Positions 15,822 through 21,930 of a stretch of 30,762 nucleotides of DNA are shown piece by piece. Origin of the DNA: Prevotella sp. (lineage in GTDB: Bacteria; Bacteroidota; Bacteroidia; Bacteroidales; Bacteroidaceae); contig JAFXZF010000027.1 in assembly GCA_017541365.1 (NCBI GenBank), positions 1-30,762 of the forward strand, read 5' to 3'. The notes beneath the pieces were generated by a model. That model was not told the origin of the DNA, did no database searches, and was given only the letters and a program-made list of their open reading frames with translations. Each line of letters begins with the position of its first letter. Position 1 is the stretch's first letter. Both the position numbers and the translations under genes were made by a program.

Positions 15822-16283
15822 TTACTCTCCATCGTCCTCCTTCTTTGGCTTCTCAGCCAGATCGACGATCTTGTAGCTGAAGCCCGTGCCAGAGATGGAG
15901 CGTGAGCTCAGACCCGACATCTTGCCGTCAGCAGCACTCTCTACCGAACGAGTGTAGTCAGGGGTGAAGCGTACGCGGCCGCTCTTCACGTTCTCCGCAA
16001 TGTTATACTCGTCCTTGGCGAGCGAACCGCTGGAACGGATAGATGGGAAGAAATAGCCGATACGCTCCAGGTGCACCTTGCTCGAGTTGGCGATCTCGTA
16101 AGCCATCACGTTGGCGAGTTCGATGAGCACGGCATACACGTCTGACTCCTTCACACTGACGTTGGCCTCGATCTTCTTAGCCAACTCGCGCGTGCCGATG
16201 ATGTTCGGGCAGTAGGTCCTGCCGTAGAAGAGCTTGTTGGAATTCTTGCGCCTGTCTTGGCGCACAGCAATAAAAACTGCCAT
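15822..16283 (-). CDS. HU-family DNA-binding protein (HU-HIG type)
   Basis: A 153-residue histone-like protein of the Bacteroidetes HU-HIG kind. The first ~125 residues form an HU-like fold (NSNKLFYGRTYCPNIIGTRELAKKIE, VSVKESDVYAVLIELANVMA, HLERIGYFFPSIRSSGSL), and the tail is short and charged (AEKPKKEDDGE). These proteins bend or coat DNA and are very often found next to a BT4734-like primase and VapE helicase in Bacteroidales, as here. The start at 16283 is supported by an unusually good Shine-Dalgarno sequence 9 nt upstream. The stop codon is followed by a strong terminator. Confidence 0.85.
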   Translation of the reverse strand: MAVFIAVRQDRRKNSNKLFYGRTYCPNIIGTRELAKKIEANVSVKESDVYAVLIELANVMAYEIANSSKVHLERIGYFFPSIRSSGSLAKDEYNIAENVKSGRVRFTPDYTRSVESAADGKMSGLSSRSISGTGFSYKIVDLAEKPKKEDDGE

Positions 16284-16292
16284 AATAGTAGT

Positions 16293-16300
16293 CTCCTTTC
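16293..16300 (-). promoter_or_regulatory. Strong Shine-Dalgarno before the HU-like gene
   Basis: The minus strand reads GAAAGGAG, 9 nt before the ATG. Most genes in this window lack a recognisable Shine-Dalgarno sequence, as is usual in Bacteroidetes, so a strong one suggests high expression or a foreign origin. Confidence 0.6.
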
Positions 16301-16351
16301 TTTAAAGGGTTAAACATAAAAAATAACTTTGCATAGACAATTCCGGCACTT

Positions 16352-16435
16352 CCTGCAGTCGCTTTGCTCCTGGCTGCGGATGCTTAGCATCCCCGGGTAG
16401 TTGCTTAGCATCCTTGGCTGGTTACTTAGCTCCTG
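16352..16435. repeat. Degenerate ~21-bp tandem repeat in the HU-like gene leader
   Basis: About four units of 20-22 bp share the core TTGCTTAGCATCC or variants (TTTGCTCC, TTACTTAGCTCC). One unit contains the 15-bp palindrome GGATGCTTAGCATCC (16378-16392). The array falls within the predicted 5' leader of the HU-like gene, between its promoter and start codon. It has stops in the minus-strand frames checked and is probably non-coding. Confidence 0.65.
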
Positions 16436-16456
16436 CACTCCTTCATTATCTACATA

Positions 16457-16488
16457 CAAAGTTACTAAAAATCAGCGAATTATGCAAG
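16457..16488 (-). promoter_or_regulatory. Promoter of the HU-like gene
   Basis: On the minus strand CTTG (16485-16488), a 20-bp spacer and TAACTTTG (16457-16464). Transcription from about 16450 gives a leader of roughly 165 nt that includes the tandem repeat. Confidence 0.6.
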
Positions 16489-16553
16489 TTTTTCGTGCAT
16501 TATTTTCGCTGTTTTCTGCAACTTTTTGCGGTAGCTATGCGAGGAGCTAATCG

Positions 16554-16680
16554 GGGGTGTGGGGTGTGGTGAAATTCCTTATATAGTATAAAAATAAATA
16601 AGAATATAGTGTTCACTATCTATATTGATTTTTTGATTTATTTTTAAATCCCATAAGGAAAGTACCTCACCCCACACCCC
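16554..16680. repeat. Large multi-stem inverted repeat directly behind vapE
   Basis: The outer arms are a perfect 13-bp match, GGGGTGTGGGGTG (16554-16566) with CACCCCACACCCC (16668-16680). Inside are GGT/ACC, a second perfect 8-bp stem TTCCTTAT (16575-16582) / ATAAGGAA (16653-16660), and an apical ATAGTG/CACTAT hairpin (16606-16619). The structure ends 6 bp from the vapE stop codon. With the repeat and promoter of the HU gene it accounts for the 403-bp gap 16284-16686, where no gene is seen. It could be a terminator, a replication or packaging hairpin, or a MITE-like element; the sequence does not decide. Confidence 0.75.
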
Positions 16681-16686
16681 TCAGAC

Positions 16687-18249
16687 TTAGAATGGCTCAG
16701 GGGCTACAGCAACATTGAATTCCACTACATCCTCCTTTGACTGGGCATCATACGCACTAGGATCAATCTTCACTACATGGTATTTATGCCTGCCCTTACT
16801 GAGTATTGAAGGAAAGCCCAACAGCTTCATGCACTTGCCTATCTTAGACGATGTGAACTCTTTTCCACGAAAACCACGATAACCCAGCTCCTTCAATATG
16901 TCGCCAGCATACATGGTAGTGGATGCTTCCGCGCCATCGGGCACTTTGAGGAATGTCTGTATCGCCTCGGCACAGTCCTCTGCCTCCATGTAGGGTTGGT
17001 TGTGCTGGGTTATCAGCATACTCTCGTCCTGGTCGGGCTTAGGCACGAAACCGTGGTTGAGCAGATAGAGAGCCTGAGCGTAAGCACCCTCATAAGGCAA
17101 GGGGAAGTTCTCGAGGTCAACGGTGTCCTTGAGGTCAACCACCAAGTAGCGGCGGCTACCCTCACCATTGCGTATGGGACAGTCATCGTTGGTGGTGGCT
17201 ATGAGTGAAGCCCTGCGCTCACGCGACTCACGGAATCGGGCGTAGGCATCACGCACGTTGGAACGATTTGAGGTGACGATAAACTTGAACGCCTCGTTCT
17301 TCTGCGTAGAGCCAAAGGATATCTCGTCGAACACTATGAGCGGTGTTTCCGACAGCGAGATGATGAAGTCCTTGTCGATACGTTCCGATGGCGACACCTC
17401 GAGGCGGTAGTCGCGCAGGTGAGGTGGCAGGATGTGGCGTGCAAAGTAGGTCTTGCCTATGTGCTGCATACCCTTGAATATGGGCATCAGCGGGTTCTCA
17501 TGAAACTTGCCCCGCATCATACCCACCAGCGCCACGTGCCACTTCTTCATCATCAGTTCATAGAAGTCTTCGTTCTCTGGGTCGTTGAACTCCATGTGAC
17601 CTACGTAGAAATCGCGCAAGTAGTCAGGGTCCGTGTCAGGGTTCCAAGGCGCCAGACTGTCGAGCCACTCGTTAACGGCATCATAGTCGGTACAGAAATC
17701 GCGACTGAAGATGAGCGCCTTAACATCTTGCTGTCTTGCCTTGATGCCCTGCTCATTGAGCCGGCAGTAGAAGGTGTCCAGGTCGCGGTCCTGAAATGGT
17801 CGCCATGGCTGCCCTTCCTCCTTAAACTCAGGACGCTGACGCCACACATTGAAGCGCCATTCGCCCTGTTTCTTCAGAGCCTCCTTCATGAGCTCCATGC
17901 GGTTCTGCTGCTCCTTCAGCTTCTGCGCCTGCGTCTTGGTGCGCCGTCCACGGGGCAACGTCAGCGTTATGCCGTGCTCCTTGGCAATCTTCACCAATGA
18001 GCCCAGACTGACGCAGTTCTTGCTCGTCTTGAGGCAGTAGCTGAAGTGCTTGTCGCACTCCTCACGGCTGTACTTGGGGTGATTACTACTAATAAGGTGG
18101 AACGCCTCACGCCCTGCCTCACCCTGCGATGCACAGGCGTAGGCTATCTCCGTCCACTCTGTCTTCTGGTCCTGCGTTATGTCAACGCCCGAATCCTTAA
18201 TCTGCTGGGCATATAGCTCCAGCTTCTCTTTTTCTGTGTAATGCATCAT
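16687..18249 (-). CDS. VapE-family P-loop helicase with PriCT-2-like N-terminus
   Basis: A 520-residue protein of the virulence-associated protein E (VapE) kind, related to superfamily 3 helicases of phages and satellites. The first ~100 residues resemble the primase C-terminal 2 (PriCT-2) domain (YAQQIKDSGVDITQDQKTEW, EAFHLISSNHPKYSREECD). The ATPase core has a P-loop GMQHIGKTYFARHIL, a Walker B LIVFDEIS, an arginine-containing ASLIATTNDDCP sensor region and GSRRYLVVDL. The C-terminal ~100 residues look like a winged-helix tail. It starts 2 bp after the stop codon of the primase-like gene, so the two form one unit, probably a primase-helicase pair. Related pairs occur as small integrated units in Bacteroidales, often with an HU-like gene. 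Confidence 0.88.
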   Translation of the reverse strand: MMHYTEKEKLELYAQQIKDSGVDITQDQKTEWTEIAYACASQGEAGREAFHLISSNHPKYSREECDKHFSYCLKTSKNCVSLGSLVKIAKEHGITLTLPRGRRTKTQAQKLKEQQNRMELMKEALKKQGEWRFNVWRQRPEFKEEGQPWRPFQDRDLDTFYCRLNEQGIKARQQDVKALIFSRDFCTDYDAVNEWLDSLAPWNPDTDPDYLRDFYVGHMEFNDPENEDFYELMMKKWHVALVGMMRGKFHENPLMPIFKGMQHIGKTYFARHILPPHLRDYRLEVSPSERIDKDFIISLSETPLIVFDEISFGSTQKNEAFKFIVTSNRSNVRDAYARFRESRERRASLIATTNDDCPIRNGEGSRRYLVVDLKDTVDLENFPLPYEGAYAQALYLLNHGFVPKPDQDESMLITQHNQPYMEAEDCAEAIQTFLKVPDGAEASTTMYAGDILKELGYRGFRGKEFTSSKIGKCMKLLGFPSILSKGRHKYHVVKIDPSAYDAQSKEDVVEFNVAVAPEPF

Positions 18250-18251
18250 AA

Positions 18252-18854
18252 TTATATAAACTTTTCGTTAATAAAACAATCTTTATCCCAAGGCAGGAAG
18301 CAAAGCCTGTTGACGTTGGAGCAAGAGGCATCTGCCAATACGCCATAATTAAAACCGATGTAGCGGCTCAGCACGGCATACTGCGTGGCGAAGTCCATAT
18401 CCCTGCACCACTCAGGCACCACCGCCCACCATTTCACGCCCAAGCCCTTAGGCGACACGAAGCACAGCGCCGTCTCCACCGCCTTATCAGCGATTAAGGT
18501 CTGCTGCACCCTGCGAGCCTCTTCCGTAGAGCTAAGCCCGTCGATGTCGAGCACAATGAACGGTGAACGCTCCACCAGCCCCTTAGCATTGCCATAGCTG
18601 AACACTCCCGCGCCAGCCACCGCGTCAAACTTGAGCAGCTTATAGTCACGCAACTCCTGCTCCGTAGCCGTCGCCATCATGCGCCTGAGCTCCAGCGTCT
18701 GCGCCTTGGCGCAATCCGAAGTTATGTACCTACCAGTCCATGCTATATCCACGCTCTCGACTGGTTTTGTCGAGGGCACTACCTTGCCCGTCTTCTTGTT
18801 CAAGTACCCCTTACCAAACAAGGTGAAGGTACCGTTTTTAATTGAACAATCCAT
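18252..18854 (-). CDS. BT4734/VirE N-terminal-like primase-polymerase domain protein
   Basis: A 200-residue protein resembling the N-terminal domain of Bacteroidetes VirE/BT4734 proteins, a primase-polymerase-like fold. Key stretches are FIVLDIDGLSSTEEARRV, with the acidic Asp-x-Asp pair, TALCFVSPKGLGVKWWAVV, and SNVNRLCFLPWDKD near the C-terminus. I placed the start at 18854 (MDCSIKNGTF) because the promoter at 18893-18924 would begin transcription near 18886, leaving the 28-codon upstream extension largely untranscribed. In many relatives this domain is fused to VapE; here the two are separate coding sequences 2 bp apart. Confidence 0.8.
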   Translation of the reverse strand: MDCSIKNGTFTLFGKGYLNKKTGKVVPSTKPVESVDIAWTGRYITSDCAKAQTLELRRMMATATEQELRDYKLLKFDAVAGAGVFSYGNAKGLVERSPFIVLDIDGLSSTEEARRVQQTLIADKAVETALCFVSPKGLGVKWWAVVPEWCRDMDFATQYAVLSRYIGFNYGVLADASCSNVNRLCFLPWDKDCFINEKFI

Positions 18855-18892
18855 ACTTTTCTTTCTTTTTGTAAAGTTTACTAATGATGCTG

Positions 18893-18924
18893 CAAAATTA
18901 CTCCTTTTGCGACTTTCATACAAG
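18893..18924 (-). promoter_or_regulatory. Promoter of the primase-vapE operon
   Basis: On the minus strand CTTG (18921-18924), a 20-bp spacer and TAATTTTG (18893-18900). It decides the choice of the downstream start codon for the primase-like gene. Confidence 0.6.
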
Positions 18925-18993
18925 AAAAACGAAGTCATTTGGTTTACGACGGAAAGTGCTGTTTTTTAAGTATTTACAACGGTGCGTAAAGAG

Positions 18994-19103
18994 GTTTTTA
19001 CAGATTTTCCTCGCGCTTTCCTTTGATAGTAGCAGAAGTTTTTACGGAAGCAATGTTTCCTGTAAAAACTTTGAAATAAAACCATTCTTTTTGCCGTAAA
19101 AAA
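18994..19103. repeat. Reiterated TTTTTAC motif, direct and inverted, upstream of the primase operon
   Basis: GTTTTTACAG (18994-19003), GTTTTTACGGAA (19038-19049), the inverted TTCCTGTAAAAAC (19057-19069) and the inverted CCGTAAAAA (19094-19102) lie within 110 bp. The second and third form a 12-bp hairpin with one bulged base. They fill the gap between the primase promoter and the end of the 393-residue gene (18855-19175), where no gene is seen. Such spaced copies can be operator or iteron-like sites; function here is unknown. Confidence 0.55.
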
Positions 19104-19107
19104 ATGC

Positions 19108-19139
19108 AAAAAAAAAACAGATTCCGAAGGGGAACCTGT
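19108..19139 (-). terminator. Terminator of the 393-residue protein gene
   Basis: On the minus strand ACAGGTTCCC pairs with GGAATCTGT (one mismatch, tight loop) and is followed by an uninterrupted run of about ten T (19108-19117). It lies about 40 bp behind the stop codon at 19176. Confidence 0.8.
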
Positions 19140-19175
19140 CAAAACAATTTTATACTATGATAGCCTTATTGTGCT

Positions 19176-20357
19176 TTATTGGGGTAAAATATTTTCAACA
19201 TACGATTCAAAATTCTTTGCAAACCACTCATGTGATACATTCTGACTATATAGGTATTTTCTCTCACGACATACTGCTGGCCATGTAGGAAAGAGATAAT
19301 CACCATCAAAATTCTTAATACAATAATTATAGAAACGTCTTTCCTTTTCTTCATCCTTTATTCTACCTTCAGTATCAGTACTGCTTACACCACTCCATTT
19401 TATCATATAAACCATCACACGAGAGTCATAGGTGCCTTTTTTTCCTCTTTCAGCCGCCTTCTTGCTGTTCTTATATGGCAAGCCGAGAGTGTCGAGTTTG
19501 GGGAGTATGCTACACACCGTTTGCCCCCATTCCGGATTGTTATTCCAAAGCAGTGCCGCCTCGTTATCTAATCCATACTGATTGCCTGTGGCTATTCTGA
19601 TTTTTATGCCCTCAGTCTTAATCCACTGTCTATCATATCTATGATAATCACGCGGCAGCCACACCTCCATGGGAGTAGCATTTTTGCGACGTTCTGCCAG
19701 TTCTTCCTCTGAAACCAACTGTATCTTGTCAAATGTACTGAATACCTCTCGCACGCTATGAAGAACCTCGTCACAGTCTTTCTCAAATATAGCCTTTAGT
19801 TTTTGGACATCTTTCCTTGTTTCCTCCTCCTTGCGTATCATATCCTTGCATATCTTCATCGTGGTCACGAGATGATAGAAAAAGGAAGCAAGTTCATGCA
19901 GTAGAGTCTTCACTGATTCTATGTATGGTTCCACTCCGAAGAACTGACCATGAAACTGACGGAACGTAAGACGACTATAATCAAGCACAGGAACTATATT
20001 ATGACGTTCATCCAATCTGCGACGCACAACAGGACAGAAAGAGCGGAATATCTTCATGCTGCCAGTCATCGTAGTCCCAATACGCCGTATGAGTTTCTCT
20101 GTCAGGCGGAAACACTCGTTATGGTCAGTTGCATACTGCTCGATGAAGTTCTCAGAGAACTCCACCAAGTCCATTGACTCGTTATTGAGCCTATACTGAT
20201 AATGACGCAAGAGATTCAGCGTCTTTTCTATTTTCTTTTGGTCAAACTTACAGGTCAATATCGCCTCCAGCACATTCTCTGCTTCAAACTCCTGCGCTGC
20301 CTCATATATATTGTTAAAGCCTGTTTCGTCTCTTTGAACTATAGTAGAGTATAACAT
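19176..20357 (-). CDS. Uncharacterised 393-residue protein
   Basis: I do not recognise this protein. It is soluble-looking and charged, with no signal peptide or membrane helix. The N-terminal ~240 residues are mostly helical and Lys/Glu/Leu-rich (for example TLNLLRHYQYRLNNESMDLV and a possible coiled coil around residues 170-215). The C-terminal ~150 residues are aromatic-rich and look like a separate globular domain (WIKTEGIKIRIATGNQYG, VMVYMIKWSGVSS, FPTWPAVCRERKYLY). It is a single gene with its own terminator and a palindrome just upstream, divergent from the methyltransferase locus. A regulatory or mobile-element role is possible; nothing in the sequence establishes it. Confidence 0.7.
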   Translation of the reverse strand: MLYSTIVQRDETGFNNIYEAAQEFEAENVLEAILTCKFDQKKIEKTLNLLRHYQYRLNNESMDLVEFSENFIEQYATDHNECFRLTEKLIRRIGTTMTGSMKIFRSFCPVVRRRLDERHNIVPVLDYSRLTFRQFHGQFFGVEPYIESVKTLLHELASFFYHLVTTMKICKDMIRKEEETRKDVQKLKAIFEKDCDEVLHSVREVFSTFDKIQLVSEEELAERRKNATPMEVWLPRDYHRYDRQWIKTEGIKIRIATGNQYGLDNEAALLWNNNPEWGQTVCSILPKLDTLGLPYKNSKKAAERGKKGTYDSRVMVYMIKWSGVSSTDTEGRIKDEEKERRFYNYCIKNFDGDYLFPTWPAVCRERKYLYSQNVSHEWFAKNFESYVENILPQ

Positions 20358-20368
20358 AGATTTAGAAA

Positions 20369-20387
20369 ATTCGTTTATAAAACGAAT
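20369..20387. promoter_or_regulatory. Palindromic operator-like site before the 393-residue gene
   Basis: Perfect 8-bp arms ATTCGTTT (20369-20376) and AAACGAAT (20380-20387) around a 3-bp centre, 12 bp upstream of the start codon. A TATATTTG box on the minus strand (20406-20413) would start transcription near 20400, placing the palindrome in the first 35 transcribed bases. I see no matching -33 box, so the promoter itself is uncertain. Confidence 0.5.
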
Positions 20388-20464
20388 CTCTTACAACAAG
20401 TGTGCCAAATATATAATCTGTCATGGTAAGTTTTCTCGTCTTACAAAAAAAGTTGCAGAATTTT

Positions 20465-20496
20465 TTTGGAGGTTACGATTTATCTTCGTATCTTTG
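20465..20496 (+). promoter_or_regulatory. Promoter of the methyltransferase-nuclease operon and its leader
   Basis: TTTG (20465-20468), a 20-bp spacer and TATCTTTG (20489-20496) match the Bacteroidetes promoter. The predicted start near 20503 coincides with the first base of the first hairpin of the leader. No second promoter is seen between here and the ATG at 20815. Confidence 0.75.
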
Positions 20497-20502
20497 CAAA
20501 TG

Positions 20503-20809
20503 GTTCGGGGAGAAATCCGAACTAACAATATAAAGCATTCGCTATTATTTCGCGTTAAGCCAAAATGCCCAGGAAACAGTTTGGAATAAGAAACGCTCTG
20601 AAGTAATAGAGATAAGGGTGTCAGGTAATGGCATCCCTGTTCCTCATCATATATAGCAATGCATTTGCGCCAACAGGCGTGATGCATTCTTATTAGATGA
20701 GGTGGGGTTCCTTTCCTGGGCATGCCCTAAGCTTAACGCATAAGAGGCATCACGCTTTTCTTGTGCGTGGCGATTGATAGTTGATGCCTGACTTAATAAC
20801 TATCAATCG
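20503..20809 (+). ncRNA. Highly structured leader RNA upstream of the EcoRI-family methyltransferase
   Basis: The ~310-nt leader folds on paper into nested helices. A 5' hairpin is GTTCGG/CCGAAC (20503-20522). A closing helix is GCGTTAAGC (20552-20560) with GCTTAACGC (20731-20739). A second is a 12-bp helix ATGCCCAGGAAA (20565-20576) with TTTCCTGGGCAT (20712-20723). Inside are a hairpin at 20615-20638, a 7-bp helix CCTCATC/GATGAGG (20642-20648, 20696-20702), and within that AATGCAT..CGCC/GGCG..ATGCATT (20658-20688). Further 3' are CACGC/GCGTG (20751-20769) and a 12-bp hairpin before the start codon. I recognise no known riboswitch, retron, tmRNA, RNase P or 6S consensus. An inserted MITE-like element (20552-20739) is the alternative reading. 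Confidence 0.65.
20771..20809 (+). promoter_or_regulatory. Perfect 12-bp inverted repeat abutting the methyltransferase start codon
   Basis: CGATTGATAGTT (20771-20782) and AACTATCAATCG (20798-20809) with a 15-nt loop end 5 nt before the ATG at 20815. In RNA this hairpin would cover the ribosome-loading zone; in DNA it would be a good operator for a dimeric protein. No T run follows, so it is not a terminator. Confidence 0.7.
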
Positions 20810-20814
20810 CATCT

Positions 20815-21930
20815 ATGGCAAACAAGAACCTGAACAACGCTAAGATTGCTAAAAAAGACGAGTTCTACACGCAGTTGACTGACATCGAGAGGGAGTTGCA
20901 GCATTACTGGCAGCACTTCAAGGATAAGGTGGTATTGTGCAACTGTGATGACCCGTATGAAAGTAATTTCTTCAAGTATTTTGCGCTTCGCTTCAACCAG
21001 CTCGGTTTGAAGAAGCTCATCTGCACATGCTATAACGGTTCGCCTGTACAAGGTAACGAACTAATGATTGACTTTGGCGACTTCTTTGACGAGCCAAAGA
21101 AGATAGCCTACAAGGTGGAGATAACGGAAGTGAAGGACATGAACGGTGACGGTGCCGTTGACCTCAGCGATGTGCAGTATCTGCTGAAGAACGACAAGAA
21201 TGTGCTCTCTACGCTGAAGACGGGCGACTTCCGTGACCCTGAGTGCATCGAACTGCTGAAGCAGGCAGACATAGTCGTAACCAATCCGCCGTTCTCCTTG
21301 TTTAGGGAGTATATTGGGCAGCTGCTTGAATACAAAAAGAAATTCCTTATTGTGGGCAATCAGGGAGCAATCATCTACAAAGAGATTTTTCCTCATGTCA
21401 TAAACAATGAGATATGGCTTGGGTATGGTTTCAAGGGTGGTGCTGCTCACTTCGTTTCTCCTTATGAAGACACAGCTACAGCAGGAGACCACAGGGCTGG
21501 CATGATACGAGTTTCTGGTGTCCATTGGTTTACGAATTTAGAGACACAAAAGAGAAATGAACCGATTGATTTGGTTTGTAAATATTCGCCAGAGGAATAT
21601 CCCACCTATGACAACTATGATGCAATTGAGATAAATAAAACTTCTGATATTCCTGCGGACTATGCAGGAGTAATGGGGGTTCCAATTACCTTCCTTGACA
21701 AATATGACCCCAATCAATTTGAAATTCTTGGAATGTGTGAGAATATGGATTTGTATAAACTAAAAACAAAGGTATATACGTCAGAGGAATGCAAAGACGC
21801 CTATTATAAGAAATTCTCAAAAAAAGGTACTTATGATTTAAATGCAAGTGGTGTAATTATAAAGAATGGTATCAAAGAAAAAGTCTATTCAAGAATTCTC
21901 ATCCGCAACAAACACCCACAAAAGATATGA
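20815..21930 (+). CDS. EcoRI-family DNA adenine-specific methyltransferase
   Basis: Probably transfers a methyl group from S-adenosylmethionine to adenine N6 in a specific DNA sequence. The 371-residue protein matches the EcoRI methylase family: NAKIAKKDEFYTQLTDIERE at the N-terminus, VVLCNCDDPYESNFFKYF (about residues 40-57, the cofactor-binding region) and the catalytic NPPF motif at residues 156-159 in ADIVVTNPPFSLFREY, followed by KKFLIVGNQGAI. An EF-hand/dockerin-like segment, DMNGDGAVDLSDV, lies near residue 108. Its stop codon overlaps the start of the DUF262-HNH gene (ATGA), so the pair is one operon. Roughly the last third of the gene is more A/T-rich than the first part. The recognition sequence cannot be read from the protein. 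Confidence 0.9.
   Translation: MANKNLNNAKIAKKDEFYTQLTDIERELQHYWQHFKDKVVLCNCDDPYESNFFKYFALRFNQLGLKKLICTCYNGSPVQGNELMIDFGDFFDEPKKIAYKVEITEVKDMNGDGAVDLSDVQYLLKNDKNVLSTLKTGDFRDPECIELLKQADIVVTNPPFSLFREYIGQLLEYKKKFLIVGNQGAIIYKEIFPHVINNEIWLGYGFKGGAAHFVSPYEDTATAGDHRAGMIRVSGVHWFTNLETQKRNEPIDLVCKYSPEEYPTYDNYDAIEINKTSDIPADYAGVMGVPITFLDKYDPNQFEILGMCENMDLYKLKTKVYTSEECKDAYYKKFSKKGTYDLNASGVIIKNGIKEKVYSRILIRNKHPQKI

Follow-up and report, generated by a model that had tools for sequence, protein, structure and literature searches.

A conserved leader RNA with mutually exclusive pairings, shared by genes of restriction-modification and phage defence in Prevotella-like bacteria, as a probable translational switch

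Control over when restriction-modification acts is usually attributed to proteins. Translational riboswitches and orphan riboswitch candidates combine a conserved structured 5′ leader with mutually exclusive helices, one of which lies over the start codon. Structured RNAs also occur beside nuclease genes, as in the case of the omega RNA of IscB, and the defence protein AbiF reportedly has an RNA partner. Within restriction-modification systems, a hairpin limits access to the start site of the restriction gene of Cfr9I (cited in a passage of the review PMC12707154), and a passage of PMC3874152 describes antisense RNAs of EcoRI and Eco29kI that arise from reverse promoters inside one system. Literature searches and passages of PMC8040213 and PMC2864571 gave no description of the RNA analysed here, and an unnamed entry in the supplementary tables of PMC8040213 is possible; in these sources the family was not found described.

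The window, i.e. the whole stretch of Prevotella sp. DNA that was analysed (30,762 nt), contains a methyltransferase–nuclease operon (Table 1) for which a preliminary description had proposed that a large structured RNA precedes it as a leader and that its control differs from that by C-proteins or methylase autorepression. Both proposals are supported. The segment 20503–20814 (312 nt) has a minimum free energy of −117.6 kcal/mol compared with −79.6 kcal/mol (sd 4.8) for 100 dinucleotide shuffles, none of which folds as well (z −7.99). The two long-range complementarities of the preliminary description are exact (9 bp, here P1; 12 bp, here P2, equivalent to inverted repeat I3), the nested helices inside them correspond to P3, P4 and P5, and the 5′ hairpin coincides with the predicted transcript start. 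The covariation among relatives is strong, which excludes a chance origin of the fold. The leader belongs to no known Rfam family: as had been anticipated, the window contains no match at the Rfam gathering thresholds, and a search of 20400–20900 with E values up to 10 produced just three matches, all far below threshold.

Transcription is predicted to start near 20503 from the position of the element at 20465–20496, which has the form of a Bacteroidetes promoter. Of 155 related places, 146 have a TAnnTTTG motif no more than 110 nt 5′ of the core, at a median of 36 nt before it, compared with a mean of 12.7 and a maximum of 22 places in 100 mononucleotide shuffles and with five of 151 downstream of the core. 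The hairpin at the transcript start has the form GGGGAGAAATCC in many relatives and is replaced by different hairpins in others.

Table 1. Features of the leader and of the operon behind it (positions in the window).
Feature	Position	Strand	Basis
Promoter, Bacteroidetes type (presumed)	TTTG 20465-20468, 20 nt, TATCTTTG 20489-20496	+	Read from sequence
5′ hairpin, 7 bp, at predicted transcript start	20503-20522	+	Fold
5′ switch strand (putative), conserved	20535-20553	+	Alignments, duplex tests
P0, pseudoknot across P1-P3	20543-20551 with 20600-20608	+	Pair counts; own- versus exchanged-subfamily energies
P1	20552-20560 with 20731-20739	+	Four pair types at one position; double changes
P2	20565-20576 with 20712-20723	+	Double changes
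P3	20583-20586 with 20708-20711	+	Compensatory changes, 4/6 pairs, in both A3 and A4
P4 hairpin	20616-20623 with 20629-20636	+	Folds, sequences
P5 hairpin, outer stem	20642-20648 with 20696-20702	+	Folds
P5, apical	20658-20664 with 20682-20688; 20668-20671 with 20676-20679	+	Folds, pair counts
P6 (with the P5 3′ arm)	20677-20685, 20687-20692 with 20747-20755 and 20741-20745	+	Pair counts in family A; sequences in family B
Hairpin T, overlapping P1′ and P6	20736-20745 with 20759-20768	+	Read from sequence
PX 3′ strand	20770-20787	+	16 PX pairs; first 13 nt are the P7 5′ side
P7 hairpin, start region	20770-20782 with 20798-20810	+	Inverted repeat I1, 13/13 complementary
EcoRI-type adenine-specific DNA methyltransferase, 371 aa	20815-21930	+	PF13651, E 3.4e-143; PADLOC MTase_II
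GmrSD_N (DUF262) + HNH nuclease, 374 aa	21927-23051	+	PF03235, PF01844; PADLOC REase_II, residues 2-373

Among 18 leaders, RNAalifold predicts 35 pairs, with compensatory changes in 18 of them. The covariance model R1, built from these leaders, recovers all 18, a further locus (L039) and, weakly, the leaders of family B (five loci, E 2e-4 to 8e-3). In alignments fitted to the model, 23 of the 35 pairs are doubly changed both among 91 sequences (96.7% of cells paired, compared with 36–46% when one strand is slid) and among 63 further sequences (93.4% compared with 33–45%). Since model-fitted alignments favour the model, 107 non-redundant leaders, exclusive of the divergent type C, were realigned by MAFFT alone. 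In that alignment the doubly changed cells number 106 for P1 and 98 for P2, compared with no more than 40 and 45, respectively, among 300 strand swaps.

The pairing P6 is mutually exclusive with apical P5 and with hairpin T, the latter being an alternative fold in the PX-forced structure of the window and in L033. Within family A, the alignment suggests moderate support for P6: 94.6% of cells are paired compared with no more than 93.2% in swaps, the 28 doubly changed cells equal the highest swap, and the outer part does not surpass its slid versions. The pairing is kept in family B with a different sequence, as read from the sequences. A first test of P6 by whole-segment duplex energies gave weak separation (own −29.7, exchanged −27.1), because the segments contain other complementary parts. 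P4 is absent from family B and from one family-A leader (L178).

A feature that goes beyond the preliminary description is that the most conserved part of the RNA, the 5′ strand 20535–20553, is complementary to two places, the P0 segment and an element before the ATG. This strand can pair with 20770–20787 (PX) or, partly, with 20600–20608 (P0). In both family A and family B, a hairpin (P7) is present at the start codon; that of the window ends 4 nt short of the ATG. PX joins the 5′ strand to the 5′ side and loop of P7 (16 bp in the window) and so excludes it; PX and P7 share 20770–20782, and P0 and PX share the 5′ strand. When the 55 nt before the ATG were dinucleotide-shuffled 100 times, PX surpassed at least 95% of the shuffles in 98 of 102 family-A and all 24 family-B leaders and in three of 23 of type C, the start codon having been taken as that nearest to 77 nt after P1′, which could favour PX slightly. 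These mutually exclusive conserved pairings, like the RNA with its main helices and its sharing among genes, are results of the computation.

The strands of PX differ in step between subfamilies, own partners pairing better than exchanged ones. Duplexes of the A strand reach −18.0 kcal/mol with A, −9.3 kcal/mol with B1 and −12.8 kcal/mol with B2 partners; those of the B2 strand reach −21.8 (B2), −12.4 (A) and −12.6 kcal/mol (B1). For the B1 strand the values are −20.4 (B1), −13.8 (A) and −17.9 kcal/mol (B2), the B2 partners being almost as good as its own. P0 behaves similarly, with −13.0 for A compared with −8.8 for B1 segments, −17.1 for B1 compared with −11.0 for A segments and −15.7 for B2 compared with −8.3 for A segments. 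In family A, P0 has a modest advantage over dinucleotide shuffles (mean z −1.5, 60 leaders), and in type C no P0 was found, only 18 of 33 leaders being better than the shuffled mean. There is no P0 covariation within family A because P0 is near-invariant there; P0, P7 and the 5′ strand are all nearly constant within that family and their support therefore rests on few subfamilies.

PX and P7 are predicted to be close in energy across leaders. In energies computed without pseudoknots, a fold constrained to contain PX lies above the minimum fold by a median of 1.0 kcal/mol among 107 family-A leaders (35 already contain it) and by 0.0 kcal/mol among 25 family-B leaders (14 already contain it); for the window the difference is 5.0 kcal/mol in favour of the P7 state. 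By computation, PX/P7 and P0/PX provide the mutually exclusive expression platform that characterizes riboswitches, and structure, promoter and spacing place a conserved structured leader in a position from which it would act in cis.

The leader is probably a cis-acting translational switch RNA that many genes of restriction-modification and phage defence have in common in Prevotella-like bacteria. We infer that it acts in cis, on translation rather than on transcription and in answer to a signal, with the ON and OFF states assigned as follows. Transcription would begin at about 20503, continue through a pseudoknotted core made up of P1–P5 together with P0 and P6 and enter the first gene; the switching element would be the conserved 5′ strand. 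In the OFF state the 5′ strand would be held in P0, the bases before the start would close as P7 and the methyltransferase start would be hidden. In the ON state it would pair with the 5′ side of P7 (PX), leaving the 27 nt before the AUG single-stranded and allowing translation to start. P5, P6 and T would form a second set of alternatives, probably deciding the fold of the core, and the choice of core fold could answer a putative ligand, protein or other signal.

R1 matches are present in at least 162 of 398 genomes of the genus, at up to four places per genome among the matches listed. With a broader covariance model, R2, matches were obtained in 20 of 295 genomes at the level of the order, representing 16 of 184 genera and in part weak (E up to 4e-4), and in two of 296 genomes at the level of the phylum, namely G001 itself and, weakly, L234 (E 7e-4). 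Within the genus, the family-B model R3, built from eight leaders, has matches in 143 of 249 genomes at up to eight places per genome. The ATG mostly lies 68–89 nt 3′ of P1′ in family A, some cases being blurred by upstream in-frame ATGs, and 217–245 nt 3′ of the 5′ motif in 26 of the 28 best places of family B. No match to the leader was found by blastn in phage and plasmid records, and the exact family-A and family-B 5′ motifs gave no matches in viral contigs; the evidence against phage carriage is weak, because in viral contigs the exact motifs alone were searched.

At the places examined, the genes directly behind the RNA are mostly those of restriction-modification (types I, II, IIG and III) and of SNF2-type anti-phage helicases, with genes for exported proteins in a sister subtype. 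Among the R1 matches listed, 142 entries were examined, representing 141 distinct places (one was entered twice): 65 precede an EcoRI-type methyltransferase and 66 another ORF, five (four places) have no ORF by the start rule and six lie at contig ends. In two of the places without ORF (L173 and L180), an open frame begins inside the RNA. Sixteen of the 66 other ORFs are restriction- or defence-type genes (11 by family search and five by blastp cluster), namely HsdM-type, N6/N4 MTase, MTase–HSDR fusion, PglX-like, MmeI, PDC-S11 and SNF2-PLD helicase genes and two DEDDh exonucleases, for which a defence role is less sure. Eight encode long proteins of ∼770–840 aa in two clusters (L118, L137, L163, L142 and L217; L125, L216 and L219); the three tested have no Pfam, NCBIfam or PADLOC family, and their position directly behind family-A leaders makes these proteins candidates for defence genes. 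Four further ORFs comprise two that are unassigned and two short ones located at methyltransferase loci.

The remaining 38 of the 66 comprise 33 behind leaders of the divergent type C (92–117 bits) and five behind high-scoring leaders (136–155 bits). They include BspA-type LRR (5), DUF285 (4) and CsgG (3) proteins, an acyltransferase, a phosphoglucose isomerase and other proteins, for the most part exported. High-scoring leaders are therefore mostly, not solely, defence leaders, and with type C taken into account the regulon is not purely defensive. Type C (L179, L181–L190, L192–L212 and L214) keeps P1–P3 and lacks PX, and P0 is unsupported in it; exported, LRR/BspA-type, CsgG-like and other proteins are encoded behind it.

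For family B, the best 30 R3 loci (five of them training places) comprise 22 EcoRI-type methyltransferases (one ∼30% identical to that of the window and one with a broken N-terminus), five type IIG genes (three by family search), one PLD-SNF2 gene and two places without an ORF. Twenty lower places add 12 restriction or helicase genes, three acyltransferases (one searched), four others and one contig end. Eight of these 12 were assigned by family search (ResIII, N6/N4 MTase, MTase_II, HKD+SNF2 and type III Mod), one by blastp (L320) and three by resemblance. Both R1 and R3 were trained solely on leaders of EcoRI-type methyltransferases, so that this class is inflated and the others are not.

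The window is 91% identical over 16332–21725 to a contig of Prevotella sp. RGIG9994 (L033). Upstream of many methyltransferase relatives, which were collected by protein search, the leader is recognizable by blastn, with 70–82% identity over its length in the best cases. It is ∼79% identical in L015 and L017, whose methyltransferases are only 38–43% identical, and L035 has a methyltransferase that is 90% identical, yet a leader of another family. This disagreement between leader and methyltransferase similarity indicates that leaders and genes have been reshuffled. Homologous loci lacking the complementarity, which the preliminary description had held to speak against a functional leader, do exist, but at a distance, in Patescibacterial operons. 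Upstream folds are weak in 10 of 12 of these (−22 to −73 kcal/mol, unnormalized values from AT-rich sequence, one on only 150 nt), and the sole R1 match among the 12 loci is at chance level (L046, 13.4 bits, E 0.19).

Several further observations concern the operon. In L040, L045, L046, L064 and L069 (Patescibacterial and similar operons), an extra ORF, differing between loci, lies between methyltransferase and nuclease. The nuclease is better conserved than the methyltransferase in 11 of 14 relatives with a nuclease match and a methyltransferase at least 60% identical, contrary to the expectation for two enzymes with a common target. In L015:1489–3598, a family-A leader and an EcoRI-type methyltransferase are followed by an apparent cytosine-C5 methyltransferase (identified by eye) in place of the DUF262–HNH nuclease. 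A second leader copy lies 3′ of a methyltransferase operon at L144:5243–5448 (equivalent to L153:1501–1706), with no intact gene behind it, and is possibly a remnant of cassette exchange. Neighbours of the operon on the minus strand (window 15822–18938) encode HU-HIG, VapE-like/PriCT and BT4734-like proteins, and this region looks like the remnant of a mobile element.

Rumen Alphaproteobacteria have another multi-copy class of structured leaders (L061, L066, L072 and L235–L271), found by blastn in 37 of 126 genomes of one family, with many of the matches short. The genes behind it include EcoRI-type methyltransferase relatives (L061, L066 and L072, and, judged from the N-termini, L246 and L247), an R-M-like gene (L245, by eye) and genes for lipoproteins, pilin-like proteins and glycosyltransferases. 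Of 55 pairs predicted for 32 sequences, 24 are doubly changed. L061, L066 and L072 have a terminator-like hairpin whose U-tract is located ∼20 nt ahead of the ATG. A search of ten of these loci against Rfam yielded two tRNAs above threshold and nothing else.

Control of transcription is the main rival to a translational switch. The leader might serve defence and surface-protein operons as an attenuator or a processive-antitermination RNA, of the types represented by put RNA, EAR RNA and NusG-like factors. Its length ahead of long genes and operons would suit such a role, as would the type C leaders without PX and P7 and the intrinsic terminator shortly before the ATG in the comparable Alphaproteobacterial class. 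However, no terminator-like site was found in 20340–20840, the interval between core and ATG included, and PX and P7, located at the start codon, are confined to families A and B; control of transcription is thus considered unlikely.

It is improbable that the RNA is released and acts in trans, either as a stand-alone regulator or as part of the restriction system, for instance a guide or scaffold. Its own promoter and its size and pseudoknots, which resemble those of known functional RNAs, would agree with this. The many unrelated proteins behind the same RNA, the mostly constant distance of its 3′ end from start codons, the lack of a terminator-like site after it in the window and the lack of an obvious variable guide segment argue against it. 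The suggestion in the preliminary description of a stand-alone RNA component is unsupported because the same RNA precedes so many unrelated genes; the idea of a guide RNA was dropped once this had been found. Rather than being tied to one protein family, as would be expected of a guide or other RNA part belonging to a single restriction system, the RNA is found ahead of genes for HsdM, N6/N4 MTases, type IIG and type III Mod proteins, SNF2-PLD helicases and others.

It is very improbable that the unit is a mobile element, such as a MITE, and folds by accident: it does recur elsewhere in genomes, with several copies per genome, which the preliminary description had named as a sign of a MITE, and leaders and genes are reshuffled, but the copies are diverged, covary far beyond controls, lie in sense orientation at a mostly constant distance from the ATG, and have a conserved promoter. 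Placement independent of gene orientation or start was not seen among the matches with flanks examined.

More speculatively, one RNA sensor family might coordinate an anti-phage and cell-surface regulon through a shared signal, possibly made during infection; we regard this as a tentative possibility. Type I, II, IIG and III restriction systems would then be held back or released jointly with SNF2-PLD helicases and with surface acyltransferases and adhesins, each at its own leader, and the leader would flag unrecognized defence genes, for example those for the ∼770–840 aa proteins of L118, L125, L142 and their cluster mates. A large, widespread and switch-like RNA across restriction types would add a new level to the regulation of bacterial immunity. 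It would make directly testable the question of when, and to what signal, gut bacteria turn restriction up or down, and it offers a sequence handle for new anti-phage genes and a riboswitch-like candidate in a dominant gut genus.

In comparison with described systems, the leader resembles translational riboswitches in its conserved structured 5′ position, its pseudoknotted core and its exclusive helices, one of which covers the start codon. It differs in that its genes are those of restriction and anti-phage functions rather than of one metabolic pathway and in that it has no Rfam match. The predicted pairings suggest that it works like a translational riboswitch, and it is a riboswitch-like candidate whose membership of that class would depend on a ligand. 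The AbiF RNA and the IscB omega RNA likewise adjoin defence or nuclease genes as structured RNAs, but each serves one partner protein, whereas the leader RNA precedes many unrelated ones. With Cfr9I it shares a hairpin at the translation start of a restriction-modification gene; the relevant passage of PMC12707154 describes one hairpin at the restriction-enzyme start, whereas the leader is a large shared RNA whose alternative folds are conserved and which sits at the first gene, usually that of the methyltransferase. The antisense RNAs of EcoRI and Eco29kI provide a further instance of RNA control of restriction-modification, from which the leader is distinguished by being a sense RNA common to many systems.
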